The notes: generated by a model not told the origin, from the letters alone. 64,000 nucleotides of DNA from Candidatus Magnetobacterium casense (GCF_000714715.1 NZ_JMFO01000001.1:62001-126000); one strand, 5' to 3'. Positions 24,722 to 54,565 are shown, counted from the stretch's first letter. Translations and numbers: made by a program.

Positions 24722-25345
24722 CTACCACTGACCCTTCTGGATGTATCTGTATATCTGCGATCTTGACTTGCGGAACAATTCGGCAATCTCCACCACGGGC
24801 ACCCTGGCATAGAGCATGACGGCGATAGCGCGTAGTTTTAAGTCTCTGATCTGTCTGATTTTGTTAATGTTGATCTTGCGATGTCCAACAAGGGCCTCCC
24901 TTATCTCTACCAGTACTTCGTTGTAGTCTTTTGTTAGTCTTTCGTCTTCGTATTGCAGGGTTGCCTCAAATGATGAGTCCTCACGTTTGAGTATTTCTTC
25001 CACGTAGATGCAGGCCTCGTTGCACCTGATGTAGTTTCTGCATCTGTGACAGGAGTGTTTGGTGCGACTCGCTACCTGGCAACGGCGCCGAGGGGTCAGC
25101 GAGGGGCGAGCCGCCCCTAGCTCAGTCCCCCCGCTCAATCCCGTTGTGCCAGTGTTGCCAGTGGGTCCCGCTACCGGAGGACGTCGGCGCCCCCCTGTCA
25201 GAGCACCATTGAGCCGGGGGGGGTCAGCGACCCCTGGCTCAATGTCGCTGACCCCTTTTATGCCGGGGGCGGCTCGCCCTTTTTTATGCCAGGGGTCGCT
25301 GACCCCCTCGCTGCCCCCCACAGGGACTAAAATGTCAGCGTCCAC
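24722..25345 (-). CDS. HTH protein with repeat-derived N-terminal half (phage-like)
   Basis: About 207 residues from a GTG start at 25345, which has AGGAGG seven bases upstream and overlaps the stop of the loader gene by 11 bp. The C-terminal 110 residues carry a Cys cluster (CHRCRNYIRCNEAC), a helical segment, and a final helix-turn-helix (AVMLYARVPVVEIAELFRKSRSQIYRYIQKG) typical of resolvase- or terminase-like HTH units. Residues about 8-86 are almost entirely encoded by GC-rich palindromic repeats (GVSDPWHKKGRAAPG, DIEPGVADPPRLNG) and are probably unstructured. It is the last gene of a leftward three-gene replication module. A regulatory role is inferred from the HTH only. Confidence 0.62.
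   Translation of the reverse strand: MDADILVPVGGSEGVSDPWHKKGRAAPGIKGVSDIEPGVADPPRLNGALTGGRRRPPVAGPTGNTGTTGLSGGTELGAARPSLTPRRRCQVASRTKHSCHRCRNYIRCNEACIYVEEILKREDSSFEATLQYEDERLTKDYNEVLVEIREALVGHRKININKIRQIRDLKLRAIAVMLYARVPVVEIAELFRKSRSQIYRYIQKGQW
25091..25316. repeat. Cluster of palindromic elements inside the HTH gene
   Basis: At least four copies or part-copies of the core GGGGTCAGCGACCCC with its flank TGAGCC/GGCTCA lie in this stretch in alternating orientation, near 25091, 25210, 25245 and 25290. The flank AGGGGCGAGCCGCCCC also recurs. The gene stays open through all of it, adding about 75 codons. Similar elements sit in five other genes of this window. Confidence 0.85.
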
Positions 25346-26321
25346 TACCTGCCTCCTGTGGCGCCTTGCAACGGCCAACCGCTGTACTCTGTGCAGGATG
25401 TGATAACAAGCCCTTTTTAAGTATGAGCACCTTGCCCATCTCACTTATGCGCATGACAACGCTCGTACCGGTAAACTCACTGACGGCGTTAAAACTCCTC
25501 TCCACCTCTCCAAGACCGTAATTGCTGATAATGATAAGTGGCAAATTGTTTATATAACGCCTGTTTATAATAGAGTACATGGTCTTCACCGACCACCCGG
25601 TAACCTTTTCGGCCATAAAGTCATCCATGACCACAAGGGGCGCACTACAGTACTTGTCATATACGTCCCCCTCGGAGAGGGGGGTCAGCGACCCCCGGCT
25701 CAATTCGGGGTTATTAAACGTCTTTCGGATATCTGCAAGCATGTCCGATACGATGGTAAAGATGGGATAACGTGGCTCTATGGGAGCCTCCGAGTAACAG
25801 TCCCGGAAGGAGGGGGTGAGCATCCGGATATAAGCCTTTAAGATGGCTGCTGCCAGATACGTCTTTCCCGTTGCGGGCGGCCCAAAGATATACAGTCCTC
25901 CGGGGGCTTGGGGGTCAGCGCCCCCCGGCTTAATTTGTTGCGTGTGGGTGGCATCCCCTGACTGAAAGCCGTCACCGCAATGCAACCTCTGCAAGACTCC
26001 CTGCACTACCTCTGCAACCTCCCGATTCACCGAAGAGATATCCGCCGTCAAGTACCTCTGCGGCACCCCACAGCTCCTTAACACGCTGTCCATGCGTCCG
26101 CTTATCCTCTGTCGCCACTTGCGCACAATGTCCTCCTGACGCAGCATCGTAAGGGACACCTTGCAGTTGTGACACACATCGGAAACCGCAATCCACCGCA
26201 ATGTAAGCGGATTAAACCACCCCACGTCCTCCCGTCCACAACGACTGCACTTATGTGCATCACCCCTGATGCCCTCAAACAGACGCACGATATCATCCCA
26301 GAAGACCTCCGTCCTGTACAT
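25335..26321 (-). CDS. DnaC/DnaI-like helicase loader ATPase (phage-type)
   Basis: About 328 residues from ATG 26321, chosen because AGGAGG lies five bases upstream and because the longer frame overlaps the upstream gene out of frame. A zinc-finger-like region comes first (CSRCGRED, DVCHNCKVS). The AAA+ core follows: Walker A FGPPATGKTYLA, Walker B PLVVMDDFMAEK, and ISNYGLGEVE near sensor I. It resembles DnaC/DnaI and IstB loaders that place replicative helicase at an origin. Two palindromic elements (25679-25706 and 25905-25935) are in frame between core motifs. The neighbours on both sides are replication-type phage genes and the stop/start overlaps indicate an operon. Confidence 0.8.
   Translation of the reverse strand: MYRTEVFWDDIVRLFEGIRGDAHKCSRCGREDVGWFNPLTLRWIAVSDVCHNCKVSLTMLRQEDIVRKWRQRISGRMDSVLRSCGVPQRYLTADISSVNREVAEVVQGVLQRLHCGDGFQSGDATHTQQIKPGGADPQAPGGLYIFGPPATGKTYLAAAILKAYIRMLTPSFRDCYSEAPIEPRYPIFTIVSDMLADIRKTFNNPELSRGSLTPLSEGDVYDKYCSAPLVVMDDFMAEKVTGWSVKTMYSIINRRYINNLPLIIISNYGLGEVERSFNAVSEFTGTSVVMRISEMGKVLILKKGLLSHPAQSTAVGRCKAPQEAGSGR
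25679..25706. repeat. In-frame palindromic element in the loader gene (1)
   Basis: The core GGGGTCAGCGACCCCCGGCT is read in the gene as ELSRGSLTP, a different frame from the GVSDPRLN reading seen in the glucan dikinase and TolC genes. It lies before the Walker B motif. Confidence 0.85.
25901..25935. repeat. In-frame palindromic element in the loader gene (2)
   Basis: A diverged core (GGGGGTCAGCGCCCCCCGGC) is read as IKPGGADPQAPGG just before the Walker A strand, where DnaC relatives have only a short linker. Confidence 0.75.
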
Positions 26322-26343
26322 GAGGGCCTCCTGGCGTGCCTGT

Positions 26344-27033
26344 TCAGGATTGTTCGCTAACAAGTCCGATATATAGGTGAGCGTATGGGTCTGCTTCTGC
26401 TGCTTTGTTGTTTTCGACACGGGGGCGAGTTTCCTGTGTGTTTGCTCCGGGGTGTTCCCGACCGACGGCGACCCCTGACTTATTGCCATCGGAGTCGTGA
26501 TGGCATTGCGCATGGTATGTTTGCTCTGCATCGTTGCTATTGTCCTCCTTCTTGTTCTTTTTTGCTGTTGGGCGCTTAATTGAGCCGGGGGTCGCTGACC
26601 CCTTGGGCTCCGGCATATGGTTGCCGGATGATCGCTCAGACGTATTTCTTGTATTAGCTCTGTTTGCATGACCGCTAGTATTTTGATACTTTTCCCAGTT
26701 ACTGATAAATATAACTGAACCCATAGCATTGCTTGTAACATTAATAATGCCATTTTGTTCGAGCCATCTCAGCACGCTTCCGATGGTTTTTTTTGAGGGT
26801 ATACGCTCTATTCCTCGTTCATAGTGAGCCACGCCTCTGGCTATGATATCGTAACTTGTCACCACCATTCCTGGAGATACCCACATGCCCAGACCGCGGT
26901 TGGTTGGCACACACTCTGTCTTCCATCTTGCCTTCTGACGCAGGTAATAAAAGATGCGATGATACAACGGTGGCATCTGCCACACCAGGCTGTCTAACTC
27001 CCTACGCCATGCCAATGTAAAGCCTCGTTCCAT
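26344..27033 (-). CDS. Phage-type replication initiator/organiser protein
   Basis: A 229-residue protein. The N-terminal 125 residues form a winged-helix-like unit common to phage replisome organisers and DnaD-like proteins: ERGFTLAWRRELDSLVWQMPPLYHRIFYYLRQKARW, later SKKTIGSVLRWLEQNGIINV. The C-terminal 100 residues are polar, low in hydrophobics and probably disordered. They include a palindromic element at 26576-26611 read as PKGSATPGSIKRP. It lies directly upstream of the helicase loader, the usual order initiator then loader in phage replication modules. The promoter must lie in 27034-27524, shared with the divergent terminase genes. Confidence 0.7.
   Translation of the reverse strand: MERGFTLAWRRELDSLVWQMPPLYHRIFYYLRQKARWKTECVPTNRGLGMWVSPGMVVTSYDIIARGVAHYERGIERIPSKKTIGSVLRWLEQNGIINVTSNAMGSVIFISNWEKYQNTSGHANRANTRNTSERSSGNHMPEPKGSATPGSIKRPTAKKNKKEDNSNDAEQTYHAQCHHDSDGNKSGVAVGREHPGANTQETRPRVENNKAAEADPYAHLYIGLVSEQS
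26576..26611. repeat. In-frame palindromic element in the initiator gene
   Basis: The core GAGCCGGGGGTCGCTGACCC is read in a third reading frame (GSATPGSI) within the disordered tail. Confidence 0.85.
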
Positions 27034-27524
27034 ACTTTTTCTATGCTAACACATATATTATCACTTGTCAAGAGAAAATATAATACCTTAAAAAATTTTT
27101 TAAAAAAATCGACATATGTGTTTTATCAGTGAAAATTATTCTTTATTTATGGCTTGTTTCTGGAACCAAATACACGCATAATTGCGGTAATGTGCATACA
27201 ATTATTCTTGTAAGTACCTGGTGATATCTCATGTAAATTTTGTGATGTAATATTTATTATACTAATAATGCAACATAAGTGTATAATAGATAACTTTAGT
27301 TGTGTAACATAAATAAGTAAATATTAAGCAATAGTTGGACAGTATTGGAACATTACTGTTTGAAGTCAAGGCTACCTGGGGTTAATGTTGAGATTTTATG
27401 CACAATTTGTTGTCTCAGAGGTGTTTCTCCGGCGTTTACCTGCGACACTAATAACCTTGTAAATAAAGGATTTTAGTGCTATCAATGCGAAATTAAACTA
27501 TATGTAGCACGGAGGATATAGCAC
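27034..27524. promoter_or_regulatory. 491 bp AT-rich divergent promoter region of the phage-like island
   Basis: No gene is visible. The AT content is far higher than in flanking genes. TATAAT occurs at about 27282 within GTGTATAATAGATAAC, and several short direct repeats of the form GTAACATAA or GCAACATAA occur nearby. The layout, with replication genes leftward and packaging genes rightward, is that of a phage early/late control region. No individual operator can be proven. Confidence 0.45.
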
Positions 27525-27875
27525 ATGGAAAGCGATAAAAATCAAGGGGGTACGCCCCCAGCGGTGGCAATGCCGCCTGACCTGACACCGGTAGCCCAAA
27601 AGCGGCAACCAAACCGGAGCAGACGCAGAGGTAAACTAAAGGGTGCCCAGAAGGTGCTTGAGTCTATGGCCTTTGACCCCATTGCGGCAATGGCGGTCAT
27701 CGCCGACGACCCCGACGTTGACGTTGCACTGAGGGCCAAGCTCCTGATGGAACTTGCCCAGTACGTCTACCCAAAGCGCAAGGGCGACCAAACCGAAGAA
27801 GGTACCACGACAGAGACCTACGAGCAACGACTCAGGCGGATACGTGCCCTGGCCGACGAAGCAGGAGCGTACTAG
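27525..27875 (+). CDS. Small terminase-like protein
   Basis: A 116-residue basic-to-acidic small protein directly before the large terminase gene. The middle section (GKLKGAQKVLESMAFDPIAAMAVIADDPDVDVALRAKLLMELAQYVYPKRKG) resembles phage small-terminase or terminase-associated proteins that have an N-terminal basic patch and a helical body. GGAGG precedes the ATG. The assignment rests mainly on position and this pattern. No catalytic motif is expected. Confidence 0.55.
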   Translation: MESDKNQGGTPPAVAMPPDLTPVAQKRQPNRSRRRGKLKGAQKVLESMAFDPIAAMAVIADDPDVDVALRAKLLMELAQYVYPKRKGDQTEEGTTTETYEQRLRRIRALADEAGAY

Positions 27876-27888
27876 AGCATGGCAACCA

Positions 27889-27908
27889 GGAGCGTCCTGG
27901 AGCGAAAA
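27889..27908. repeat. Short palindrome supplying the terminase upstream region
   Basis: CCAGGAGCGTCCTGGAGCGA lies directly before the terminase ATG and provides its GGAG-type ribosome site. The same sequence occurs in inverse orientation inside the glucan dikinase gene (33012-33047) and in the hairpin at 32632-32728. Confidence 0.7.
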
Positions 27909-27913
27909 AGAAA

Positions 27914-29695
27914 ATGAAAGCAATTGAGACAATAGAACAGGAGATTTGCAACGTCTTTAGTATCTACGCCGGTGCCTGTCTGAAGGTGCAGAGCGACAAC
28001 GGGCAACTCCTGCCGTTTTTGCTCAACGAAATACAGCGGCTTCTGGAAGAGATAATCCGCGACATCCGCAACCAGGGCAGACTCGTCAGACTGCTGATCC
28101 TCAAGGCCAGACGCGAGGGGGTCAGCACCTGGGTGGCAGGACGCTTCTACTGGAAGACCACCACGCACTTCAACCGCTACGCCGCCATGTTGACACACGA
28201 ACCGGAGGCCACGGAGTTCATATTCAATATGACGCGGCGATTTCACAGACACATTCCCTGGGAGTTTCGTCCCGCACAACTGCACAACAACAAAAAGGAG
28301 ATCGAGTTCAACACGGCATCGGGGCTGGGGCTTGACGGCGCCATCAGGGTGGGAACGGCGGGTAAGACGGACTTTGGCAGCGGACAACTGATCCACTACC
28401 TGCACCTGTCGGAGGTGGCAAAGTGGCCGACACACACGGCCTCTGACCTGCTGACCTCCCTGCTGCAGTGTGTCCCGGATCAGCCGGAGACCGAGGTTAT
28501 CTTTGAAAGCACTGCCAAGGGGCCGTCGGGTGAGTTCTACGAACGATTCTTCAGTGCCCGTTACGTCTATGAACTCTACAGGGACGCCACCGGCAAGGCG
28601 CAGTTTAAAAGCCGTATCAACGAACGCTCCAGTGTCAGCAACGTATACAGTGCCGTTTTTATCCCGTGGTTTGTCTTTGACGGTTATCGTCTGGATGGTG
28701 GTCAACCACTGGAGGGGTCAGCGAGGGGCGAGCCGCAATCTTGTCGCAGCGGGTCGCACCCGCCCCTGGCTCAGTCCCCCGGCTTAATATTGAATGAAGA
28801 TGAATCGGCGCTGAGGGACATCTGCGGTGTGGACGAGGCACAGTTGCTGTGGCGCAGGCAGGCCATCGAAAACCGTTGTGGGGGCGATATCCTCCGATTC
28901 AGGCAGGAGTATCCGGCCTCTGCCGTGGAGGCATTTGTCAGCACCAGTGCGTCGGTCTTTAACACGCAGAAGATTCTGAGACTGATGGCCGATGCCAGGG
29001 AGCCTGCGCAGAGGTACGAGTGTGAGTTGGGTACGGGGCAGTGGCGTCCGGCAGCCGATGGCAGGTTGCGTGTGTGGGAGGAGCCTGTTGCGGGCGGGCA
29101 ATATCTGATCAGTGCGGATGTCTCCGAGGGGCTTGAGGGGCATGATTACTCCTGTGCCGAGGTCATCTGGCGTCCGGTATCAGGGGGTAAAGGGCAGGTT
29201 GCGCATATGGCCAGACAGGTGGCCGAGTGGCATGGGTTTATCGAACCTGACCTCTTTGGCGTGCTCCTGGCACATCTGGGTGGGCGCTACAACAATGCAT
29301 GGTTGGTGCCGGAGAGGAACAACCACGGCCTTACCACCATCACAAAGCTCGTGGAACTCAACTACCCACGCATATACTCGGAGATGGTGCTGGTGCCTCC
29401 GGTTAAGCCAAGGAGGCGGCTGGGTTGGCTCAGTACCAGGACCAGCAAGGAACTTATCATCAACAACCTAATCGCAGAAATCAGGGACGACTGCCACGGC
29501 ATTGTCAGCAGGGAGGTCTTTGAGGAGATGCTAACCTTTATCAGGACTCAGGGTGGGCAATGTCGTGCACAAAACGCAATGCACGACGACCGTGTCATGG
29601 CAATGGCCATTGGCAGGTTTGTCTGCTCAAAGCTGCCACCTCTGACACACACACAACAACGCGGGGTTGTTATATCGACAGAGGCATGGACATGA
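27914..29695 (+). CDS. Phage large terminase (ATPase-nuclease)
   Basis: A 593-residue DNA-packaging motor subunit. The ATPase part has a Walker A-like KARREGVST (residues 64-72), Walker B-like YLHLSEVAKW (162-171) and the coupling motif ESTAKG (198-203). The nuclease part has ISADVSEGLEGHDYS (about 396), VPERNNHG (about 465) and HDDRVMAMA (about 557), giving the acidic residues of an RNase H-like fold. Length is complete. A 77 bp palindromic element (28713-28789) lies in the linker between the two domains without breaking the frame. No portal, protease or capsid gene follows, which is unusual for a functional prophage. Confidence 0.9.
   Translation: MKAIETIEQEICNVFSIYAGACLKVQSDNGQLLPFLLNEIQRLLEEIIRDIRNQGRLVRLLILKARREGVSTWVAGRFYWKTTTHFNRYAAMLTHEPEATEFIFNMTRRFHRHIPWEFRPAQLHNNKKEIEFNTASGLGLDGAIRVGTAGKTDFGSGQLIHYLHLSEVAKWPTHTASDLLTSLLQCVPDQPETEVIFESTAKGPSGEFYERFFSARYVYELYRDATGKAQFKSRINERSSVSNVYSAVFIPWFVFDGYRLDGGQPLEGSARGEPQSCRSGSHPPLAQSPGLILNEDESALRDICGVDEAQLLWRRQAIENRCGGDILRFRQEYPASAVEAFVSTSASVFNTQKILRLMADAREPAQRYECELGTGQWRPAADGRLRVWEEPVAGGQYLISADVSEGLEGHDYSCAEVIWRPVSGGKGQVAHMARQVAEWHGFIEPDLFGVLLAHLGGRYNNAWLVPERNNHGLTTITKLVELNYPRIYSEMVLVPPVKPRRRLGWLSTRTSKELIINNLIAEIRDDCHGIVSREVFEEMLTFIRTQGGQCRAQNAMHDDRVMAMAIGRFVCSKLPPLTHTQQRGVVISTEAWT
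28713..28789. repeat. Long palindromic element inside the terminase gene
   Basis: About 77 bp, read as EGSARGEPQSCRSG followed by HPPLAQSPG. A near-identical element at 34389-34466 in the glucan dikinase gene has the same orientation relative to its gene and the same reading frame. Both end in the CTCAGTCCCCCGGCTTAAT-like flank. Confidence 0.9.
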
Positions 29696-29730
29696 AATCA
29701 CTACGGGCGTATCTCCTTTATATTTCACGG

Positions 29731-29803
29731 TAAAAGAAAGAAGGAGGGCGGCTCCGCCCCCTCCTCAGACCTCCCCTGCAAGGGGGCCAGCCCCCTTGAC
29801 CCC
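29731..29803. terminator. Dispersed GC-rich double hairpin between convergent genes
   Basis: The same two stems as at 24633: GGGCGGCTCCGCCC and AAGGGGGCCAGCCCCCTT. It lies between the terminase gene and the convergent DUF167 gene. On the minus strand a CTTCTTTCTTTT tail follows the first stem, so it can act in both directions. Confidence 0.65.
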
Positions 29804-29849
29804 ATTATTCTTAACCCTAATGTTCTAAGCATTTATGCTCCGTTATTTA

Positions 29850-30152
29850 TTATATGGAGTCTATGCCTGTTATTTCGACAAGCTTGTTTTTTGACTTTTT
29901 GCCTTTGATAATCCTGATATCGGATTTTTTGATCCTTGCGGAGGCGTCCCTGGATTTGATGTGCTTACAGAGCAGTTCGACAAGTAATTTGTTGGCCTGT
30001 CCATCGACGGGGGCGGCCGTGACCCTGATGCGCAGAACACCATCAACACAGCCAACAACCTCGTTGCCGGCAGCACGCGGGATCACCTTTATACTCACAA
30101 CAATGCCTGTAGCACTCTTGTTATAACACGGCTGCATGTTAAACTCTGACAC
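29850..30152 (-). CDS. UPF0235/DUF167 family protein (YggU-like)
   Basis: A 100-residue conserved small protein. The family signature VVSIKVIPRAAGNEVVG at the N-terminus and RIRVTAAPVDGQANKLLVELL in the middle are clear, with a final strand KSKNKLVEI. Its biochemical role is not known. The start is GTG at 30152 with AGGTGAT just upstream; an ATG five codons inside is possible. It stands alone, with the DUF262 gene upstream on the same strand after 87 bases. Confidence 0.92.
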   Translation of the reverse strand: MSEFNMQPCYNKSATGIVVSIKVIPRAAGNEVVGCVDGVLRIRVTAAPVDGQANKLLVELLCKHIKSRDASARIKKSDIRIIKGKKSKNKLVEITGIDSI

Positions 30153-30239
30153 ATATCACCTATAATTTTGCACTTTTCGGTTTATAAAAAAATGCGAAAG
30201 TACAGGATTGTATCATAAATTCAAGAATTGTTTGTTGTC

Positions 30240-31994: not shown

Positions 31995-32033
31995 AGACAT
32001 CCTCCTTAAGTTTCAATTACGTTTTTACACTTC

Positions 32034-32218
32034 CAGGGCTAATTTGTTCTCCGTGGCCGTTGCCCATCCCACCCTCCCCTAGCCCCTCCCATAAAGGGAG
32101 GGGGATTGCGCTAGTGTCTCATAAATTTCCCTCCCCTTGTGGGAGGGATAAAAGGGAGGGGGTCATTCTAAAAAAACAGCCTGCAATCTTGATCTTCAGA
32201 CAGAACAAATTAGCCCTG
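32034..32218. mobile_element. MITE-like element C with 17 bp perfect ends and 9 bp target duplication
   Basis: The ends CAGGGCTAATTTGTTCT (32034-32050) and its exact complement (32202-32218) enclose 185 bp. TTACACTTC is duplicated at 32025-32033 and 32219-32227. The interior is made of CCCTCCC/GGGAGGG palindromes, one of which recurs at 54675-54716. No ORF is present. Perfect ends and an intact target duplication suggest a recent insertion. Confidence 0.88.
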
Positions 32219-32305
32219 TTACACTTCTGAGTCTCTTGAAAATATGACACAAAAGCAATTATCATACAAAAAAATACCGTTTATTATCAGTGATTTCTAA
32301 TATAT

Positions 32306-32631: not shown

Positions 32632-32728
32632 GGGGTCAAGGGGGCTGGCCCCCTTGCGGGGGGGTTCTAAAGGGGGGCCAGGAGCGTCCTGGAGCGACAA
32701 AGAAGCGGAGCCGCCCCTTTCTTTCTTT
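32632..32728 (-). terminator. GC-rich hairpin cluster after the glucan dikinase gene
   Basis: On the minus strand, just after the stop at 32735, the region reads as GGGGCGGCTCCGCTTC, then the CGCTCCAGGACGCTCCTGG palindrome, then AAGGGGGCCAGCCCCCTT. It is probably a terminator. It combines both short-repeat families in one place. Confidence 0.6.
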
Positions 32729-32734
32729 GTATTG

Positions 32735-35700
32735 CTACAACATCTGTGCGCGGCTCTGGACAACGTAGTATGTGCCCTTGCAATAGGCACCCTCTATGTC
32801 CTGAGGCGATCCCGTGATGTCTTCAATAGATATCCCTATCTCTGCAATGGCACGCATTAGCCCCTCCTGAAATTGTTTATCCCATAGCAGCGGCTCATCG
32901 GCATAGTCGAGGACGACCTCCCTGGATGCCGGTAACAGGATGCTGTCATACAGTCCCGCCCCCGCATACCCCATGAGGTCTTCAGCGTTTGTGTCGGAGC
33001 GAAATATCAGTCCGCTTCTTTTTCGCTCCAGGACGCTCCTGGCTCCATACAGTCCTACCCCCTTGCTTGGGTAAAAGATGGGCGACAGGGTCTTGTCTGC
33101 CTTGTTGCAGGTAAAGCTCAACGCCCGACCCGGGAAGTTACCCACCAGCGTTTCGCCAAGCCCCAGGACGACTTCGGCATATAGCTCATCTCTGCTGTTG
33201 TTTAGGGGGTTTAGCGTGTGGATGACAAATGCGTACTCTGCCTCGATAACCCCCTGGATGAGGACGGCCATGGAGAGTGCCTCATGCGGTATGCCCATGT
33301 TTCTGCGACTGAGGTATGCACGCTCATTCCATGCGGAGGCATAGACCTGCTTGATACAACGCCATCCTTCGGTCCAATCATCGGGAGGCGATATCCCCTC
33401 TTGCTGCATTGTATCAGTGAGTGCCTGAAAGAGGGCATCGGGTGGGGTTAGCGACATGATGGTTTGCTTGATGGCGTCCAGGGCTGCCGTTAAACACTGG
33501 TCTGTTGTAGCCAGGGCGTTCACCTGGTTGTCGTAGAGCCTCTTGACGTCGGCATTGACGGGGAGTTGCATCAGGTGATCGAATATGCCAAAGGGGATAA
33601 CCACAGATGCCGGTGTGTGAATCCAGTTTGGGAGTTTGTCCCTGAGCGCTGCAAGGTTGTTGGACTTGAGGCCTGCCGTTGCGGCGCTGAATTGCCCGGA
33701 TGTCAGGGCGTATGTCTCAAATGCGTTATTACGTGGAGTCAGCGATATCTGGTGGCGTGCCTCTGAGTGTTGTGCAGAGGTGGCATCCGGATTAAGCCGG
33801 GGGTCGCTGACCCCTGTCGCTGTATCCTCAAATAATACCTCTCCGGCAGCCGTAACCAGGAGGTTCAGGCAATGCCCCTTAAACGACTTCAGACGCTCTA
33901 TGACATCTTTATTGTAGCAGGTGGCAAAGAGCACCGCACCGTTTCGTGCCCTGACCCCAAGGTGGGAGACAACATCTATGTTATTGGCCGATATAATGGC
34001 CGTTACCCCCTTTGGAATTTCCTCGTCCCCTACCACCTTGTCGGTTATTATAATCGTGGATGAGTTAAAGGTCGAGTGTGTGACCCTGTGCAGGGTGTCA
34101 ACGACTTCCACCGTACCAACGGCGTTGTGTCGGCTGATGACCTGCCACTGTGGAAGTATGCCCTGCTTCAGGAGTACCGTTTCAAGGTACTGCAACAGCA
34201 GCGACAGGGCAAAGATCAGGCGGGTGCGTATGACTTCTTCCGTAAAGAGGTTAACCGTCCAGGAGTCGGCGTTAAAGGCCTTGCCGAGGAACTGGGCGTT
34301 GTCGTGAAACATCCTGTAGTATCTGTCAATGAAGCTACCCAGGAGGCGCTTGAGGCGTTCCAGGATGGCAAGGCAGTGATACCGCCACATTGAGCCAGGG
34401 GACTGAGCCAGGGGCGGGGGCGCCCCGCTGCGACAAGATTGCGGCTCGCCCCTCGCTGACCCCTCGTTGTCCTGAAACGACAACCTGCCAAGGTGTCTGG
34501 AGCAGGCCCTGAGTTCATCGGTTGTGTTGGTAAAGAGGATGTTTTCCACCACTATGCCAATCAGGCGTGTAAGCTCCTCTATGCCCATGTGCTGGTTTAC
34601 GTTTCGCTCTATCAGCATCCGGAGGTGTTCCTCCAGCGCCAGGGATAGAAAAAGCAGGTCTCTGACCCGTTTGCGGTCCCGTTCGGTATTCAGACGCAGG
34701 GCGATCTCTCTGCACACCTCCGTGATGGCAGAGGCAACACTAAACAGTGACAGTTCTCTGTTGTGCAGGATTGAGTGCAGCTTGTGTTGGGCGCTATGGT
34801 CGAAGAGGTACAGGGCTGCATTGGTTGCCCTGTAGAGGTCTGTGCCTGAGTGAACGGCCTTGAGGGTATTGAGGTAGTTGCCAAAGTCGTGCAGCAGGGC
34901 ATCCTTGAGGTGTGGTACGAAGTCCGGGGGAGTTTTGATGGGGCGTTCGAAACCGGCAAGCCTTTCCCTGTTGATCCCGGCTGCCATGAGCGTGGAGTAG
35001 AACACGTCGTGGTTGCCGTTGCTGTGGAGGAACTGTATGTACGCCTCACAGATGGCGATGTCATCGGCGGTTGTGTTGTTATGCAGCTTCTGGTGCCACT
35101 CTTCGAGGAAGTGTCCCGTGACTTCTTTTATTCTGTGTCGGTGCATGATCTGCAGGATTTCGTCACGGATGCGTTGTCCGTCTCCGCCGGCGCCGAGTGT
35201 GGTCATCATCAGTGTGATGATTTCGTGCAGGTCTGATTCGTTTATGAACTTCTCTGCCAGTTTGAGTGTCAGACGCTCAACGGAGTGACTGAGTTCCCTG
35301 GGTTGGGTGTTGTAGTTACGTTGCCAGTCTAGTTGTCGGAGGAACGAGTAACGCAGCCAGACAAATAGCAGGCTGAAACCCACCCCGCGCAGGCCATCAC
35401 AGAGGTCGTGGCAGAGGTTGAACCTGTGCATGAGAGTCCAGGAGTGGTTGCCCATTTCGCCGTTTATGATCCGCTCGGCGATGTGCAAAAGCCCTTCGTC
35501 CTTGAGTGTGGACCCCGTCTGAGTGTGCGATACAAAGGGGACCTGATAGTTCTTGCCGTGGTTGTTGTCCCAGCGGTTTTCCTCGGGGAAGAACAGGACA
35601 AAGGACAGGACGCTAAACCCCATGTCCCTGGCAATCCTGATGGTAAGTTTACCCCCGGAGTGGTTGGGTTGAAAGGGGCTTTGTATGGCCGTGTGCTGGA

Positions 35701-35899
35701 ACGGTACGCTCTCCTGCGGCCAGTAAGGTTGCGGTGGCACCTGCCACTTGGCCCATCTGTTGGCACACAGCCCCCAGTGCAGGAGACACTTGCGCGGGTA
35801 CTGCAAGGACAGCCGCAGTTCAATGTGGTCATCCAGCTCATGACTCTCAACTAGCAGCTTGATGGCCCTGTCAATGTTTATTTCGTGTGACGTCGTCAT
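32735..35899 (-). CDS. Alpha-glucan water dikinase (GWD-like)
   Basis: A 1054-residue homologue of plant GWD. The enzyme phosphorylates glucose units of starch or glycogen-like glucan, using both beta and gamma phosphates of ATP. A CBM45-like segment comes first (CLLHWGLCANRWAKWQVPP). The next signature is EEWHQKLHNNTTADDIAIC, then LKAVHSGTDL. The phosphohistidine is probably H646 in DVVSHLGVRARNG, exactly as in plant enzymes. The C-terminal ATP-grasp part has AEVVLGLGETLVGNFPG, FRSDTNAEDLMGYAGAGLYDS and QDIEGAYCKGTYYVVQSRAQ. Three in-frame palindromic elements interrupt it between conserved blocks. Glycogen synthase lies 19 kb away. A GC-rich hairpin follows the stop. Confidence 0.92.
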   Translation of the reverse strand: MTTSHEINIDRAIKLLVESHELDDHIELRLSLQYPRKCLLHWGLCANRWAKWQVPPQPYWPQESVPFQHTAIQSPFQPNHSGGKLTIRIARDMGFSVLSFVLFFPEENRWDNNHGKNYQVPFVSHTQTGSTLKDEGLLHIAERIINGEMGNHSWTLMHRFNLCHDLCDGLRGVGFSLLFVWLRYSFLRQLDWQRNYNTQPRELSHSVERLTLKLAEKFINESDLHEIITLMMTTLGAGGDGQRIRDEILQIMHRHRIKEVTGHFLEEWHQKLHNNTTADDIAICEAYIQFLHSNGNHDVFYSTLMAAGINRERLAGFERPIKTPPDFVPHLKDALLHDFGNYLNTLKAVHSGTDLYRATNAALYLFDHSAQHKLHSILHNRELSLFSVASAITEVCREIALRLNTERDRKRVRDLLFLSLALEEHLRMLIERNVNQHMGIEELTRLIGIVVENILFTNTTDELRACSRHLGRLSFQDNEGSARGEPQSCRSGAPPPLAQSPGSMWRYHCLAILERLKRLLGSFIDRYYRMFHDNAQFLGKAFNADSWTVNLFTEEVIRTRLIFALSLLLQYLETVLLKQGILPQWQVISRHNAVGTVEVVDTLHRVTHSTFNSSTIIITDKVVGDEEIPKGVTAIISANNIDVVSHLGVRARNGAVLFATCYNKDVIERLKSFKGHCLNLLVTAAGEVLFEDTATGVSDPRLNPDATSAQHSEARHQISLTPRNNAFETYALTSGQFSAATAGLKSNNLAALRDKLPNWIHTPASVVIPFGIFDHLMQLPVNADVKRLYDNQVNALATTDQCLTAALDAIKQTIMSLTPPDALFQALTDTMQQEGISPPDDWTEGWRCIKQVYASAWNERAYLSRRNMGIPHEALSMAVLIQGVIEAEYAFVIHTLNPLNNSRDELYAEVVLGLGETLVGNFPGRALSFTCNKADKTLSPIFYPSKGVGLYGARSVLERKRSGLIFRSDTNAEDLMGYAGAGLYDSILLPASREVVLDYADEPLLWDKQFQEGLMRAIAEIGISIEDITGSPQDIEGAYCKGTYYVVQSRAQML
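33012..33047. repeat. In-frame palindrome in the glucan dikinase gene (C-terminal)
   Basis: CGCTCCAGGACGCTCCTGG is read in the gene as GARSVLERKRSG. In plant GWD the flanking motifs (YPSKxxGL and IFRSDxNxED) are joined by only a few residues, so about nine residues look inserted. Confidence 0.75.
33789..33817. repeat. In-frame palindrome in the glucan dikinase gene (middle)
   Basis: The core is read as TGVSDPRLNPD just after the phosphohistidine domain. The GVSDPRLN octapeptide is identical to that in the TolC-family protein at 53789. Confidence 0.88.
34389..34466. repeat. Long in-frame palindromic element in the glucan dikinase gene
   Basis: About 78 bp nearly identical to the terminase element at 28713-28789 and read in the same frame (EGSARGEPQSCRSG, then PPPLAQSPG). 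Confidence 0.9.
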
Positions 35900-48700: not shown

Positions 48701-50420
48701 GACCTTTACTGTAACGCAGCCTGGAAGTAGCAACTGCACCTATACAATCACCCCAACTATCAAGGATTTCCTTGCAACAGGCGGTACCGGTGATGTAACG
48801 GTAAAGACCTCAACAAGCGCCTGCCAGTGGACTGCAACAAGCGGCGTTGACTGGATCACCGTAACATCAGGCAGCGCGGTAACCGGCGCAGGTGTGGTAT
48901 CCTATTCCGTTGCGGTAAACACAACCCAAGCCTCCCGCACCGGCACGATAACTATCGCCGGACAGACATTTACTGTGAATCAGGAACCTGCCTGCACCTA
49001 TACAATTGCCCCTACGAACAAAAAGTTCAATGTATCTGGTGGAAAGGACAGCGTCATTGTCACAGCAGCAGGGAGCGGATGTTCATGGACTGCGGCAAGC
49101 AACAACAGTTGGATAACGATAACCTCCGGCAGCTCCGGTAGCGGCAGTGACACGGTGTACTATTTAGTGGCAGCCAATACAAGTACAGAACCGCGACTTG
49201 GTACGATGACCATAGCCGGGCAGACATTCACGGTTACGCAGGACAGTGGAGGTGTAACTCTCACCCTCAAGATAACCGGCAACGGCAGCGGCACCGTAGC
49301 AGCATCCACCGGAAAACTCAACTGTAGCAGCGATGGCAAGACATGTCTGGCATCGTATGTCATAAACGACGTTGTTATCCTTACCGCGACCCCAGCACAA
49401 GGCTCAACTGTAAAGGGCTGGACGGGTTGCGACACAACAACAGTCACAGGAGGCAGCCAATGTACGCTCACGATGTCTAAAGACATGGACGTCAGCGTCG
49501 AGTTTTCAGTCCCCATAACGCCGATATACGATTTTGACGGCGACGGCAAGAGCGACGTCATCTGGCGTAGCAGTCAATCCGGCGATGTCTTCATCTGGCT
49601 TATGAACAAGTTCAGTCTGACCGGCGGCGATTACGTCGTCAAGGGGATCACGGCGGATTGGGACATCAAGGGAATAGCCGACTTCAACGGCGACGGCAAG
49701 AACGACATAGTCTGGCAGCACAAGGACAAGGGCGATGTCTACATGTACATCATGAACGGCACGCAGATATCGGCCCACGATTATGCACTGAAGGGTCTGC
49801 CCAAGGAGTGGGAGTTCAAGAAGGCCGGCGACTTCGATGGCGACGGCAAGGCGGACATCCTGTGGCAGAGCACCGAATCTGGCGACGTGGCCGTGTGGTT
49901 GATGAACGGCAAGGACATCAAGAGCGGCGGATTTATCGTCAAGGGGATGAGGCCGGAGTGGACGATCAGGGCCGTGGCCGATCTCGATGGCAACAAGAAG
50001 GCCGATATCATCTGGCAAAACACCGACGGCGACATAGTTGTCTGGCTGATGGACGGCACGACGATCTCAAAGATGGATTATTCATCACGTGGTATTCCAG
50101 GCAGTTGGCAGATAAAGGCGGTCGTTGACTTTGATGGCGATGGCAAGGCCGACCTGCTCTGGCAGGACATCGTATCGGGTGACGTTGCCATGTGGCTGAT
50201 GGACGGGTTCAAGATAGTTGGCGGCGGTCTTGTGAGTCATGGGATGCCCAACGTCTGGCAGATACTCAGCGTGGCTGACTACGACGGCAACGGCAAGGCC
50301 GACATCTTCTGGAAGAACACCGGCAATGGCGACGTGTATGCGTGGTTCATGGACGGCGTGGCTATATCCGACAAGGGTTACGTTGTGATGGGTATGCCCC
50401 CGGAATGGCAGGCTAAATAG
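45738..50420 (+). CDS. Giant secreted surface protein: propeller repeats, InlB-like repeats, BACON domains, FG-GAP/VCBS repeats
   Basis: A 1560-residue exported protein. The signal peptide covers about residues 1-32. Residues about 35-480 are SBBP-type propeller repeats (WxxxxGS, NIYLGG, KYDSSGN). About 480-655 may be a LamG-like sandwich. Two InlB-B-like repeats lie at 660-810 after a TPTPTPT linker. Four BACON domains at about 826-1170 carry CSWTATSNVSWI and TGTITIxGQTFTVTQ. Another InlB-like unit spans 1172-1250. The C-terminus has six FG-GAP/VCBS repeats of about 49 residues (DFDGDGKxDxxWQ) that probably bind calcium. These modules bind sugars or proteins, so adhesion is likely. A 10-base G run at 45810-45819 lies in the signal peptide. 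There is no visible anchor. Confidence 0.9.
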   Translation: MFKKGYRAGSIFLTLLAFGMVFAYGGGVARGADQYEYAWTKTLLSGWSNGGNDCRFDTATQNLITVGFFTQTINFHPAGGSDSRSSSSFRDWYVWKMDSDATYTKGGWSRTGYSGSVNDWLTSVVSDSSGNIYTCGGEDTGSYPSAWGPAGIITKFSPDGTRGWSLQYGSLNNYAPCNSIELSSDGYLYATGGFQGTVTFAAGITKTSVGAHDVYLLKATKDGTVVWVQTFGGAYTDYGNSVATDAQNNIYLGGYSYPSSDVTNGFLRKYDSSGNMLWKTDFTGAVTSKPNFVHQVKVNSEGNVLVGGYFSGTLTIGTTTLTSSVNNSFISKISPSGQVTWLKSLSGSGSNGLAKMMLDANNNIYLGGAFQGTFDLDPGSGVVSKTAVGSNDSYMLKLSKDGDYLWSRTIGSASGTVGLSGFCLNPANNDIYVTGEFSGTINFNTDTGGEPVSDPAVDSSMFVSKYKATSTTIPLTPANWNEYKEWVFDSTGNMSVTSDGLQFNGYGYRVGAELASKSTFNFIGSETYIKWKAHGAGYMGAGILLWNTSPPTKAISIGSMTTHHSWEGSVVISDDTWYYTRIKVNSDNTYQSVTATGNYDNNGGTVFLTVPGTITNQSDFQNGAISALLGDNYGGTASYVTLGEVKTTATSGVTPTPTPTYTYTVTPSAGTGGTITPSTPQTVTSGATTQFTVTPNTGYSIGSVTGCGGSLSGNTYTTGAITANCTVMATFSIIPPTTYTVTATANTGGSISCTPTSVSSGGSSTCTITPNSNFNLSALTDNGASVFTGASQTTYTITNITANHTVVATFTLIPTPPPTPTPTPTPCTYTISPTIKSFPAAGGSDTVSVAVNSSCSWTATSNVSWIKFASGNSGAGIGTIGYTVEAYTGTTSRTGTITIEGKTLTVTQLPPDCAITINPTSKTFTSPSGDSGSFSVSSGCTWTATSNNTSWLTVTTSGTGTVNYTVAANTATTPRTGTITVAGQNATATFTVTQPGSSNCTYTITPTIKDFLATGGTGDVTVKTSTSACQWTATSGVDWITVTSGSAVTGAGVVSYSVAVNTTQASRTGTITIAGQTFTVNQEPACTYTIAPTNKKFNVSGGKDSVIVTAAGSGCSWTAASNNSWITITSGSSGSGSDTVYYLVAANTSTEPRLGTMTIAGQTFTVTQDSGGVTLTLKITGNGSGTVAASTGKLNCSSDGKTCLASYVINDVVILTATPAQGSTVKGWTGCDTTTVTGGSQCTLTMSKDMDVSVEFSVPITPIYDFDGDGKSDVIWRSSQSGDVFIWLMNKFSLTGGDYVVKGITADWDIKGIADFNGDGKNDIVWQHKDKGDVYMYIMNGTQISAHDYALKGLPKEWEFKKAGDFDGDGKADILWQSTESGDVAVWLMNGKDIKSGGFIVKGMRPEWTIRAVADLDGNKKADIIWQNTDGDIVVWLMDGTTISKMDYSSRGIPGSWQIKAVVDFDGDGKADLLWQDIVSGDVAMWLMDGFKIVGGGLVSHGMPNVWQILSVADYDGNGKADIFWKNTGNGDVYAWFMDGVAISDKGYVVMGMPPEWQAK

Positions 50421-50464
50421 TGGCAGGCTAAGTAAGTGACTAAGTAAAAAAAGAAGAAACTGCA

Positions 50465-50518
50465 AAGGGAGGGGTTTACCCCATTACACCAGGGGGTGCT
50501 GCCCCTCCCTCAACCCCC
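50465..50518 (+). terminator. Hairpin after the large surface protein gene
   Basis: GGGAGGGG and CCCCTCCC form a stem about 45 bases after the stop. A GGGGTT/ACCCC inner pairing is possible. There is no T tract, so the terminator call is tentative; the sequence resembles the other GC-rich repeats. Confidence 0.4.
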
Positions 50519-50602
50519 AACAAATACCTGACAAGGCGTGAAGCCACTGCACAAGTATCCAAGTTATACGATCAGCGCTCAAATCATCAGGCAAAGCTGT
50601 CG

Positions 50603-51256
50603 TTACTTTGCAAATGCCCGAAGGATGACAATCATAACTGCTATCTGCCCTATCCAGAACAGAAACATCCACTTGGTGATATCTGCTTTAGTCTCTGAGA
50701 GTTTTTGCTCTAATTTGGCGACTTCAGTGGTGATACGCTCATTGAGTCTTCCTTCCAGCGCCACCATCTCTGTCCTCAATGCCGCTGACTCGGCCTTCAT
50801 CTCAGTCCTTAACGCCGTTGAGTCGGTTTTCATCTCAGTCCTTAACGCCGCCATCTCAGTCCTCAATGCCGCTGACTCGGCCTTCATCTCAGTCCTTAAC
50901 GCCGTTGAGTCGCTTTTCATCTCAGTCCTTAACGCCGTTGAGTCGCTTTTCATCTTACCTTCCAGCGCAACGAATTCAGACTTTAACGAGTTTTCCAGCG
51001 CCACGATGTCGGCCTTCAACGCCGTTGAGTCGGTTTTCATCTCAGTCTTTAACGCATTTGAGTCGTTTTTAATCTTGCCTTCGAGGATAATCAGGTCGGC
51101 CTTTAATGAGCCTTCCAGCGCCATCAGGTCGGCCTTTGTTGCCATCTCGGTTTTTGCATGTTCGGCCACATCGTCAATTGCATCGATGATGGCAATAGTC
51201 CCATCTTCCCCAATTTTGTCCTTGAGCAGGTTATACAGTTCTATCTTTCTATACAT
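50603..51256 (-). CDS. Coiled-coil protein with C-terminal membrane anchor
   Basis: A 217-residue protein. After a globular start (ELYNLLKDKIGEDGTIAIIDAID), residues about 40-170 are an almost perfect run of 11-residue units of the form LRTEMKSDSTA, interrupted by seven-residue units (LRTEMAA). This pattern gives a right-handed or mixed coiled coil. A final hydrophobic segment (WMFLFWIGQIAVMIVILRAF) anchors it, as in DUF1640/CCDC90-type proteins. Repeats are conserved at DNA level in 33 bp units, so repeat number may vary between strains. The function is unknown. Confidence 0.75.
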   Translation of the reverse strand: MYRKIELYNLLKDKIGEDGTIAIIDAIDDVAEHAKTEMATKADLMALEGSLKADLIILEGKIKNDSNALKTEMKTDSTALKADIVALENSLKSEFVALEGKMKSDSTALRTEMKSDSTALRTEMKAESAALRTEMAALRTEMKTDSTALRTEMKAESAALRTEMVALEGRLNERITTEVAKLEQKLSETKADITKWMFLFWIGQIAVMIVILRAFAK

Positions 51257-51305
51257 AGCATTTATTGTACAATACTTGGTATAAAAAATTCAAGTGCAAA
51301 AAATC

Positions 51306-51419
51306 GGTAGCACCACAAACAACCGTGGTTGCCAAGATTTAAGCCACTTTTATATTTTTCGTAGTATGGCATTATTACTGTGCTTAAGCGATGTGACCAC
51401 GCCGAACTGGAGTGCTACC
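51306..51419. mobile_element. MITE-like element B, copy 2
   Basis: The ends GGTAGCAC and GTGCTACC enclose 114 bp. The internal words AACCGTGGTT, GTAGTATGGCATT and GCTTAAGCGATGTG match the copy at 32306-32420. No target duplication is evident. Confidence 0.8.
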
Positions 51420-51468
51420 GGTAGGGGGGCGGCCAACAAGGGAGCCAGCCAGCTCCTCTTTAAAAAAA

Positions 51469-51520
51469 CAGGAAGGTATGGTGTGAACCACCACTGCGGG
51501 TATATTCCAACCATACCTTC
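51469..51520. repeat. Perfect 12 bp inverted repeat
   Basis: GGAAGGTATGGT and ACCATACCTTCC are 27 bases apart between two minus-strand genes. It could be a hairpin RNA or a protein-binding site. No T tract follows, so a terminator is less likely. Confidence 0.5.
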
Positions 51521-51577
51521 CCGGGACTTCCTGATCTAATAATCAACTATACCAATAAGTGTCTCATCCACGGGGGA

Positions 51578-51859
51578 TTAGCACCCGGCGACTGCTTTTC
51601 TGATGGTCTTCTTTCCGTCCTTTTCCTGTACGGTAATCTCGGTGCCTTCCGATACGGGGGTCTTGACTTCGCACTCACCAGCGCCGCAGGTCACGGTGAC
51701 GTCCTTACCAGACTTCTTATCGGCTACCACTACGCTTTCGACTGCATCACCTTTTTTGACAACACTTTTTACCTTACCGGATATCTTGTCTGATGCGATA
51801 AGCACGGTTACTGTCACAAAGAGAGAGACTACCAGCATCATTGCTGTTAACTTTTTCAT
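51578..51859 (-). CDS. Small exported protein
   Basis: A 93-residue protein with a signal peptide (MKKLTAMMLVVSLFVTVTVLIAS). The mature part is short and beta-rich with Lys/Val alternation (ISGKVKSVVKKGDAV, SVVVADKKSGKDVTVTCG) and three Cys (CGAGEC and a final C). It resembles small periplasmic proteins of unknown role. AGGAGG precedes the ATG. It is probably monocistronic; an AT-rich promoter region lies to the right. Confidence 0.8.
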   Translation of the reverse strand: MKKLTAMMLVVSLFVTVTVLIASDKISGKVKSVVKKGDAVESVVVADKKSGKDVTVTCGAGECEVKTPVSEGTEITVQEKDGKKTIRKAVAGC

Positions 51860-52511
51860 GTATTCACCTCCTTTTAATTTAGAATAAGTTTTATTATCGT
51901 CCTAATATGGATTAGCAGATTGTATCATAAGTTTTTTATTCTTGTCAATAGCAAAGTTTGCTGTGACATAGCAACGTTTGTTGTCATTAGTTTAACCCCA
52001 GTCAGGGCGCTTCACAGTGCTGTTATTAGTTGGTAGCAAGTTTCTTGCCAGAGGTAAACAGCTCAATATAAGACGACCTTGCCTCTATGACACCGATAAA
52101 AGTTCCCCATTTGGGGTGGTTGTCCTCATATGGGGATATTTTTACCCCCGCTTGATTACCTTGACAATGTCATATTCCAATCCTTGCAATTAAAGATGTC
52201 TGAACCACGATTTAACGGATTAAGAGATTATCAGGATTTTGCTAAAAAAAGGTCTTATCTCTTTTTCCTCTATACTTTCGCACTTTTTTATAAACCAGCA
52301 TTTTATGCAATTCTTGAAAATGGATTCCCGTTTTCACGGGAATGACAGTAAATGGCGATTTTGGCTGTTCTATGTCATTCCTGCGTAAGCAGGAATCCAG
52401 AAAGTGCGAAACCATAGTTTCCTGTAAATCCTTTAATCTGTGGAATCCTAGTTCAGACAATCCCTATGTTTACTTGTGACATTGTCAAATTAGGCGTACA
52501 ACGGGTAGTGC
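51860..52511. other. 652 bp intergenic region with nested inverted repeats
   Basis: No gene is supported. The left 300 bases hold the promoter of the small exported protein. The right part is a nested repeat structure described separately. A possible 71-codon plus-strand frame inside it (52130-52345) is an artefact of the repeats. Confidence 0.6.
52161..52488. repeat. Four-level nested inverted repeat
   Basis: The outer pair is TTGACAATGTCA (52161) and TGACATTGTCAA (52477). Inside it, GTCTGAACCACGATT (52198) pairs with the complement ending at 52458. Inside that, ACTTTCGCACTTT (52274) pairs with AAAGTGCGAAA (52401). The innermost part has ATTCCCG/CGGGAAT and ATTCCTGC/GCAGGAAT palindromes like those in MITE A. 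The pattern suggests elements inserted into elements. Confidence 0.75.
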
Positions 52512-53114
52512 CTATTTCGCATTGCCGGTTTTTGGGGTGCTCACATTGCCAAATTTCATAAACAGCTCCATCAGCATCTCCTGGTTTATTTTCAGGATGT
52601 CATAGGAGATAAACATGCTCTGCCTGATGCCGTCTATAAGTATGGCGTTAATATTACACGTTTGAGCCGCCATCACATCGCACAACTTGTTAAAGGTCAC
52701 GATGTTTTCAACAAAAACTGACATACTGCCGGGTGCCGTCTCCTCAATTACGACGTCAGAGCCAGGCACAGTTTTAGCTTTGACAGCAGTCACGTCATCG
52801 GCAGTCTGCACCGGCGTCTCATCGACAACTGAGCCATCGACAACGGGCTGCATCGGCAACGACTGCATAGGCACCTCCGGAATCAAAACCGCCTGCAACT
52901 CTATGACCCCTGCTGCCACCACAACCGGCGGAGGTATCACCACATTGTCCTGTGCCGGTTTAGCAGGTGTGGGTTTTTTACTTTTTGAGACCTTTTTTGC
53001 CGGTTTTTTGGCAGAGGTCTTCTTCTCCGCTGCAGGTGGGGTCAGTTGCTCCTGAGTTGAAATGTACTCCTGTGATTGCCCTTTGGCTTTGTCCTTCTGT
53101 CTGCCTTTAACCAT
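52512..53114 (-). CDS. Lys/Ala/Pro-rich protein with phasin-like C-terminus
   Basis: A 200-residue protein. The first 60 residues are basic and low complexity (KKPAKKVSKSKKPTPAKPA). A Val/Pro-rich linker follows, then a helical C-terminal 60 residues (VENIVTFNKLCDVMAAQTC, ILKINQEMLMELFMKFG) that resemble phasin or other amphipathic helical proteins. AGGAGA precedes the ATG. The basic tail suggests binding to DNA or an acidic polymer. No family is proven. Confidence 0.6.
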   Translation of the reverse strand: MVKGRQKDKAKGQSQEYISTQEQLTPPAAEKKTSAKKPAKKVSKSKKPTPAKPAQDNVVIPPPVVVAAGVIELQAVLIPEVPMQSLPMQPVVDGSVVDETPVQTADDVTAVKAKTVPGSDVVIEETAPGSMSVFVENIVTFNKLCDVMAAQTCNINAILIDGIRQSMFISYDILKINQEMLMELFMKFGNVSTPKTGNAK

Positions 53115-53206
53115 GTTTTTATTTCTCCTGTGTCTGTAGGGTTACAGGCAATTATAGCTTAAACGACATACAAATTTGCAAATCGGGTTTTGTCATTAAA
53201 AAAAAA

Positions 53207-54565
53207 TCACCGGGTTTGTCCCATCGCCTTTTCCAGATTTGCCTGTGCTATCTTGTAATCGGTTATTGCCTGTACGTAGGCGGTGTTTGCGTTTCCGTAG
53301 GAGACGTCGGCATCCGTTACCTCGATGGGATTGCCCACGCCGGCGGCATATCTGCCGTTTGCGATGTCGAGGTTTTCCCTAGCCTGTCTGACCGTCATGG
53401 CGGCAGCGGAGATGGCCTCCTGCGCCGACATGAGCTGGAGGTAGTACTGCTGCACCTCCACGATAATGCTCTGCCGCAGGGCAGCTTCGTTGGCCTTGAG
53501 GACGTTGAGGTTTGCCTGTGCTTCTTGTATCTGATGCTTGGTCAGGTAGCCACTAAATACTGATATCGACGCCTGAGCACCAATGTTCCAACCGCTGTTA
53601 AGAGGAAAGGACTCTCCACCCCACGTGTAGCCGGCACTGCCCGAAATGGTTGGGTAGTAGTCCTTCTTTTTGAGTTCGATGGTCTGTCGGGCGGCCTCTT
53701 GCTTGGTTATGATGGTCTTCAGGTCTGCCCTGTTCTTAAACGCCTGCTCGATTATGTCGTCGAGCGTGACTTCATAGGGTTGAAACACATTGAGCCGGGG
53801 GTCGCTGACCCCGAGGTTGTCCTCAACCAGATAGTCCCGTGCATATGGCAGTCCCATTGCATTGTTGAGGTTGATCCGTGCCAGTTGCAGGGCGTTTTCT
53901 GCCTTTATGCGGTTGAGTCTGGCGTTGCTGAGGTCCACTTCGGCCTTTGTGACGTCAAACTTTGCTTTCTCCCCCACTTCGTAGAAGCCTCTGGCCTGTT
54001 TCAGGTGCTGCTGGAACTGTCCAACGGTTTCATTTGCAATATCGAGGTTCTTTATTGCCTGAAGCAGCGTGTAGTAGGCCTGTTTGACGTTGTAGACGAC
54101 CTGCACGGTGGCACTCTTGAGGTCTGAGTCAGAGGCATCGGTGTTAAGACGCTGGATGTCTGCCTGGGTCTTGATCCGTCCGAAGTCGTAGATGTTTTGC
54201 TTTGCCGTGGCGGTGTTTGTGAACTGGTTATACGACCCTGACGGGCCTCCGCCGGAGACGGGTGCGTATCGGCTGTAAGCGGTTGAGACATCCACCTGGG
54301 GATAGTTTCCGGCCAATGCCTGGGCTATCTTGCTCTGGTTTGCCATAACGGTGTATGAGGCGGCAATGATGTTTGGCTGATTCTTGATGGCTATGTCGAT
54401 GCACCTGTCCAAGGACAATGTCTCTCCCGCTGAGATAACCGGTGCCCCACCGCCGTCATTGCGCCGGGGGGAGTCACGGTCGGCAGCGTCCGCTAAAAGG
54501 CACACTGGCGGCGTCAACAACATCATGCCCGTTAATATCAATATGTATACGCTTGTAAGTTTCAC
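53207..54565 (-). CDS. TolC-family outer membrane efflux protein
   Basis: A 452-residue outer membrane channel with a signal peptide (residues 1-27). Two repeated helical halves are visible: SLDRCIDIAIKNQPNIIAA then the YNQFTNTATAKQNIYDFGRI and TKAEVDLSNARLNRIKAENALQ segments, and again ITKQEAARQTIELKKKDYYPTISG and YGNANTAYVQAITDYKIAQANLEKAMG. It exports substrates together with an inner-membrane pump and adaptor, none of which lies nearby. A palindromic element at 53788-53813 adds NLGVSDPRLNVF just before the second half. Confidence 0.93.
   Translation of the reverse strand: MKLTSVYILILTGMMLLTPPVCLLADAADRDSPRRNDGGGAPVISAGETLSLDRCIDIAIKNQPNIIAASYTVMANQSKIAQALAGNYPQVDVSTAYSRYAPVSGGGPSGSYNQFTNTATAKQNIYDFGRIKTQADIQRLNTDASDSDLKSATVQVVYNVKQAYYTLLQAIKNLDIANETVGQFQQHLKQARGFYEVGEKAKFDVTKAEVDLSNARLNRIKAENALQLARINLNNAMGLPYARDYLVEDNLGVSDPRLNVFQPYEVTLDDIIEQAFKNRADLKTIITKQEAARQTIELKKKDYYPTISGSAGYTWGGESFPLNSGWNIGAQASISVFSGYLTKHQIQEAQANLNVLKANEAALRQSIIVEVQQYYLQLMSAQEAISAAAMTVRQARENLDIANGRYAAGVGNPIEVTDADVSYGNANTAYVQAITDYKIAQANLEKAMGQTR
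53788..53813. repeat. In-frame palindrome in the tolC-like gene
   Basis: TTGAGCCGGGGGTCGCTGAC is read as GVSDPRLN in the gene, the same octapeptide in the same frame as at 33789 in the glucan dikinase gene. It falls in the linker between the two halves, where length variation is tolerated. Confidence 0.9.

Follow-up and report, generated by a model that had tools for sequence, protein, structure and literature searches.

A 24-nt hairpin, here called unit A, is inserted in frame in unrelated protein genes of Candidatus Magnetobacterium casense and of related bacteria. The best explanation is that these repeats are non-autonomous, REP-like palindromic mobile elements whose hairpin unit is copied into genes, a reading to which we assign a probability of roughly 0.7. 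Palindromic inserts that keep the reading frame have been described chiefly in Rickettsia and in a small number of REP-rich bacteria. Unit A provides the example of a miniature, parasite-like repeat that has apparently spread through coding DNA in a Nitrospirota lineage. Here we describe the structure of the unit, its insertions in protein genes and its relationship to published palindromic repeats.

Structure and abundance of the units

Unit A (GGGGTCAGCGACCCCYGGCTYAAT) spans 24 nt, or eight codons. Alignment of the copies resolves it as GGGGTCAGCGACCCC-YGGCTYAAT, with a six-pair stem (GGGGxx/x'x'CCCC), a three-base loop (AGC or GGC) and a nine-base tail. One strand begins with GGGG and ends with YAAT, and the other begins with ATTRAG and ends with CCCC. 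The inner stem bases co-vary (TC/GA, CG/CG, TT/AA, GC/GC and AC/GT). In a search of the family that allowed any base at the four inner stem positions, pairing was complete in 45 of the 52 pattern hits. Among distinct 15-mers, 7 of 13 are fully paired, compared with 1 in 16 by chance (P about 5e-6). These paired stem changes indicate that the hairpin is under constraint.

In the window (the whole stretch of 64,000 nt that was analysed) the core GGGGTCAGCGACCCC, with up to 3 mismatches allowed, occurs 16 times where 1.34 occurrences are expected, and 0 of 100 shuffles equal this count. A unit is present at every site where the first-pass annotation of this DNA had reported a repeat. The repeats also extend beyond the window: pattern searches of the 3.4-Mb genome gave 32 exact cores and about 100 places at 3 mismatches, related modules included, while the reversed pattern and the other control patterns for unit A gave 0 matches. 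The core followed by GGC was found in 4 of 198 genomes sampled across the phylum, all 4 from the same family. Public matches to the 24-mer come from metagenome-assembled genomes (MAGs) named 'Nitrospirae bacterium' (MYbinv3, nDJH13bin1). A search of Rfam gave no match above the gathering score, and IMG/VR gave no unit fitting the unit A pattern. The first-pass annotation knew of no such family in this kind of bacterium; our literature search likewise found no paper tying such repeats to the group.

Intergenic copies of unit A lie within larger composites that start with GGGGTCAAGGGG and hold other palindromic modules. These composites often close with a GC-rich hairpin that leads into a T-rich run, and the tail of their unit A is often CATAAAA, the length then being 25 nt. 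At several loci unit A is split after GGGGTCAGCGA by other units, and once by its own inverted copy, which enters at the same point or one base away. The 48 nt at 25092..25139 (+) resolve, by sequence and nested junctions, into unit A with a further unit (GGGGCGAGCCGCCCCTAGCTCAGT) nested after GGGGTCAGCGA. A cluster in both orientations is found at 25210..25306: a copy at 25220-25243 (+), another that is inverted and nested at the internal site just named, and one at 25282-25306 (-) that has the CATAAAA tail. The whole region 25092-25306 lies between the stop of a helicase-loader ORF (25335) and the conserved residues 202-236 of an HTH gene; it is therefore probably intergenic, with a frame that is open by chance. 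Two 75-nt composites, in the terminase and dikinase genes, are nests of unit A (24 + 51 nt) and are 95% alike. The same core had been claimed for every site, and this holds for most of them but not for 28714 and 34389, where the intact 15-mer is missing because unit A is interrupted by other units.

A second palindromic unit (CCAGGAGCGTCCTGGAGCGAAAAAGAA) spans 27 nt, or nine codons. One copy, at 27886..27912 (+), lies just ahead of the ATG of the terminase gene, and another, differing at one position, is at 32678-32704; the chance expectation for a 27-mer is none. The latter copy belongs to an intergenic composite downstream of the dikinase gene (32632..32728), which ends with a GC hairpin and a T-rich run. 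The same-genus genome G199 has relatives of the 27-nt unit within its antiporter gene, within a MiaB-like ORF and ahead of CusB; the CusB gene itself carries unit A. More palindromic modules (GGGGTCCGTGACCCCTTGC, GGGGTGAGCCACCCCGGGC, GGGGTTGGCAACCCCTGGC) recur genome-wide, on contig C19 and many others, and may be sister units. Intergenic composites of other palindromic modules (GGGGCGGCTCCGCCCC, CAAGGGGGCCAGCCCCCTTG) are present at 24632..24708 and 29732..29811.

Insertions in protein genes

The gene for a TolC-family outer membrane efflux protein (53207..54565, -; Pfam OEP) carries unit A at 53789..53812 (-), read as GVSDPRLN, and its same-genus orthologues show an exact 24-nt gap. Orthologues of GspJ and of a Hyf/Nuo-like antiporter (C11) in the genus also lack exactly 24 nt each. 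Three inserts are hosted by an alpha-glucan water dikinase-like gene (32735..35899, -; Pfam). The site of the 75-nt composite at 34389..34463 (-) is exactly empty in G198, G199 and G200, all of the same genus: the junction GACAACGA-75 nt-GTGG corresponds there to GACAACGA-GTGG. The 24-nt copy at 33791..33814 (-), read as GVSDPRLN, sits in a variable loop, where the alignment tells only whether it is present or absent. The 27-nt unit at 33016..33042 (-), which the first reading had missed, is in frame and is missing in 7 of 7 orthologues. Insertions had been described as falling between conserved blocks, and often they do; this one lies between the GLYG and FRSD blocks but directly beside FRSD. 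No target-site duplication is seen at the TolC, GspJ, antiporter and dikinase sites, where the ambiguity is at most 1 nt. The units have sharp ends, and the scattered sites at which they lie share no flanking similarity.

A copy in RimO (C29:37432), in the UPF0004/radical-SAM linker, was considered as a further empty site, but alignment with relatives shows no clean gap, and it was left uncounted. The RimO linker of G198 holds a long insert of a different kind, which contains VIPAKAGIHH, a peptide characteristic of a further REP-like palindrome. In G199 (L182, complement of about 1174-1635), the antiporter gene contains an insert of ~54 residues made of intergenic composite modules, near the site of the 8-residue insert in the Magnetobacterium genome.

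Positions 24722-29695 of the window form a phage-like block with a helicase loader, a replisome organiser, a terminase and several unit copies. The phage-type terminase large subunit gene (27914..29695, +; phage and viral homologues) contains unit A with nested units at 28714..28788 (+), a 75-nt composite read as 25 residues (EGSARGEPQSCRSGSHPPLAQSPGL). A comparable segment is missing in five viral terminases, and the gap in a Roseobacter phage homologue is exactly 25 residues. The helicase loader-like ORF (AAA/IstB-like; 25335..26753, -; Pfam and phage homologues), whose true start is probably near 26531, has two copies. Unit A at 25681..25704 (+), read as LSRGSLTP from the minus-strand gene, matches a gap of eight residues in an IstB-like homologue from a phage, at low identity. 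The variant GGGGTCAGCGCCCCCCGGCTTAAT at 25911..25934 (+), read as IKPGGADP, lies shortly upstream of the Walker A motif and inside gaps of three phage homologues. A search of IMG/VR for helicase-loader homologues gave none. Another copy, at 26579..26602 (-) and read as GSATPGSI, is located in the C-terminal tail of a replisome-organiser-like ORF (26344-27033, -).

The first-pass annotation had proposed in-frame insertion in at least six genes. The inserts are indeed in frame, absent from homologues, whose alignments lack the inserted peptides, and repeated genome-wide, so that neither of the two results named beforehand as refuting the proposal was seen. The gene count holds for the genome; in the window, four genes have homologue support: the helicase loader (weaker), the terminase, the dikinase and TolC. 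The HTH gene and the initiator-like gene had also been named as hosts; a unit is present at each site, but both assignments are weak: the HTH cluster is the one described above as probably intergenic, and the initiator copy is the one in the C-terminal tail.

Unit insertions occur in either orientation. At least three reading frames had been noted earlier, and five are used across the family. Over 28 genic sites the use is f1 6, f2 9, f3 1, r1 7 and r2 5. The sixth frame, which has TGA twice in the unit sequence of the Magnetobacterium genome, is used at 0 of the 28, an absence partly built into the criteria that recognise genic copies. The five frames give the peptides GVSDPRLN, GSATPGSI, GGQRPLAQ, IEPGVADP and LSRGSLTP, and because these differ no conserved peptide function is plausible. 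The flanks of the 28 sites, compiled by hand, contain no motif (at most 0.20 bit per position).

In other genera the unit recurs with a different stem or tail. The glyS genes of G062 and G083 share an insert, which is spanned by an 11-residue gap against a solved GlyRS beta subunit. Copy number changes between close relatives, a MiaB-like gene having 4 units in G062 and 2 in G204. Units are also present in TolC, M16 peptidase and glycosyltransferase genes of G208 and in phage terminase, Mu-like portal, NRPS and CobA/HemD fusion genes of G062. The host genes are under purifying selection (dN/dS 0.09-0.27), and by sequence criteria their function is retained. Selection or conversion acting on the hairpin could have explained why the glyS insert is nearly identical in the two species, but this reading was set aside because other stretches show as much: 10 of 691 seven-codon windows are also unchanged.

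Possible routes of movement

In the proposed mechanism unit A resides mainly in the intergenic palindromic composites and is also copied into genes as a discrete unit. An insertion comprises exactly one unit, or nested or tandem units, in either orientation and with neither target-site duplication nor target motif. Most insertions would fall in tolerant loops and linkers, leave the gene working and survive, because 24 nt are eight codons and 5 of the 6 frames are free of stops. Damaging insertions would be purged by selection. What the sequences demonstrate is exact insertion of units, free choice of orientation and frame, a constrained hairpin, nesting, differing copy number among close relatives and selection that preserves the host genes. 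Movement we infer from comparisons that are all between species (dS about 0.2-0.9). The mobile entity would be the hairpin itself. It would probably move in single-stranded form, handled in trans by an enzyme that is lost, encoded on another replicon or too diverged to detect; replication or repair may carry it instead.

The enzyme could have been a HUH tyrosine transposase of TIRYT/RAYT type, now lost here, which would make the family a tag-less REP in substance. The conserved hairpin and the lack of target duplication are consistent with such an origin. The first 8 nt of unit A (GGGGTCAG) agree with GGGGWSAS, which has been published as a motif of the TIRs of TIRYT transposase genes (PMC3733652), a lead and not a test, but the variants GGGGTTAG, GGGGCGAG and GGGGGCAG do not fit it. 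In G201 a Y1 gene is flanked by GGGGACAG...CTGTCCCC, with GGGGACAG repeated on either side, and the only Y1 sequence in same-genus G199 is a remnant of 56 positions with a stop. Against this, the Y1_Tnp search gave no Y1 or RAYT gene in the unit carriers G198, G200, G099 and the Magnetobacterium genome, the last being about 92% complete, so that a missing gene is not proof of absence. Conversely, G174, G154 and G202 have RAYT-like genes and gave no units. IS200/IS605-type insertion normally requires a fixed left target, a short sequence 5' of the insertion, and none is seen in the 28 left flanks. These elements also recognise their hairpin as single-stranded DNA, with which the stem covariation of unit A is compatible. 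Taken together, we consider a lost TIRYT/RAYT-type enzyme unlikely. RAYT as a resident mobiliser is not supported, the RAYT-like protein of G062 having no counterpart found in the same genus as Magnetobacterium. The RAYT-like genes of G062 contain GTAG-type palindromes of another family and not unit A; at L213 of that genome, GTAG-tagged palindromes (GTAGGGGCGACCGG...) lie at 2619-2642 and 2971-2998, in RAYT-like genes or their immediate surroundings.

Spread might also proceed by replication or repair with no transposase, through template switching at hairpins or fragment capture at breaks. This would account for the absence of motif and duplication, for tandem and nested growth and for the repeated interruption at one internal point (after GGGGTCAGCGA). 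The flanks of the dikinase 27-nt insert (GGAG/GCGG) also resemble those of its intergenic home (GGGG/GCGG). Sharp ends at scattered sites without flanking similarity are nevertheless unlike random capture, and we regard this route as rather doubtful. Were the segments simply linker peptides peculiar to the lineage, or expansions of tandem repeats, the several sites in variable linkers would be explained, but the same DNA appears in unrelated genes, in five frames, on both strands and between genes. Orthologues that are short by exactly one unit already contradict this explanation, to which we give almost no weight. Finally, the genome is a 70-contig assembly and probably a MAG, as an artefact of assembling or binning metagenome-derived genomes would suppose. 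The same behaviour is seen in several independent assemblies, including the one-contig G083, the frames are open throughout and the glyS insert is common to two species; an artefact is extremely improbable. The preferred reading remains that of non-autonomous REP-like elements copied into genes as hairpin units. A stronger proposal, made tentatively and with the odds against it, is that the 24-nt and 27-nt units are both codon-multiple mobile hairpins, without target motif, duplication or HUH transposase, for which coding DNA is a regular habitat.

Relationship to known palindromic repeats

With its eight codons, exact ends and empty sites in sister species, unit A provides a clean system for studying how a minimal hairpin moves. 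It is also useful that copy number differs between close relatives and that two unrelated modules (24 and 27 nt) enter genes. The family also lets one ask how bacterial proteins, a subunit of an aminoacyl-tRNA synthetase among them, take in foreign segments and still function.

Rickettsia palindromic elements (RPEs) are palindromic repeats found in frame in many unrelated protein genes and have been termed selfish DNA (PMC10969869, PMC3733652). Unit A also inserts in frame in unrelated protein genes, and the parallel drawn in the first reading is apt. However, RPEs are reported to be ~150 bp with a conserved peptide, whereas unit A has 24 nt and gives five peptides in five frames. RPE-4 and RPE-6 end with CGTC; unit A lacks this tag, and its host belongs to the Nitrospirota.

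The closest published phenomenon is broader and consists of intragenic GTAG/CGTC REPs, which are published in several bacteria (PMC3733652). These are short, mostly intergenic palindromes in clusters or dimers that are sometimes genic, as here (PMC3733652). As palindromes of 20-40 bp in many copies, REPs resemble unit A (24 nt, 32 exact cores). The mark of GTAG/CGTC REPs is GTAG or CGTC at one end. The unit A family lies outside these families because this defining tag was looked for and neither form is present. GTAG REPs are tied to RAYT (Y1 HUH), whereas the Magnetobacterium genome has no Y1_Tnp match and the G062-type RAYT is not in the genus; CGTC REPs, like unit A, are without a known transposase. 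Unlike GTAG/CGTC REPs, unit A is an exact codon multiple, grows by nesting and has exact empty sites in related species.

BIMEs and REPINs resemble the intergenic composites in being mosaics whose several palindromic modules follow a recurring order. They come with RAYT, whereas none is detected in the genus of unit A and one module also enters genes alone. Like MITEs, unit A is small, non-autonomous and both genic and intergenic, but it has no target-site duplication and no separate terminal repeats and is far shorter. The unit A family is a new group of gene-tolerant REP/RPE-like elements without a GTAG or CGTC tag. The kind is already known from the published intragenic REPs and RPEs; the marks of this family are its length, the lack of a published tag, its freedom of frame, its host group and the resolution of its empty sites.
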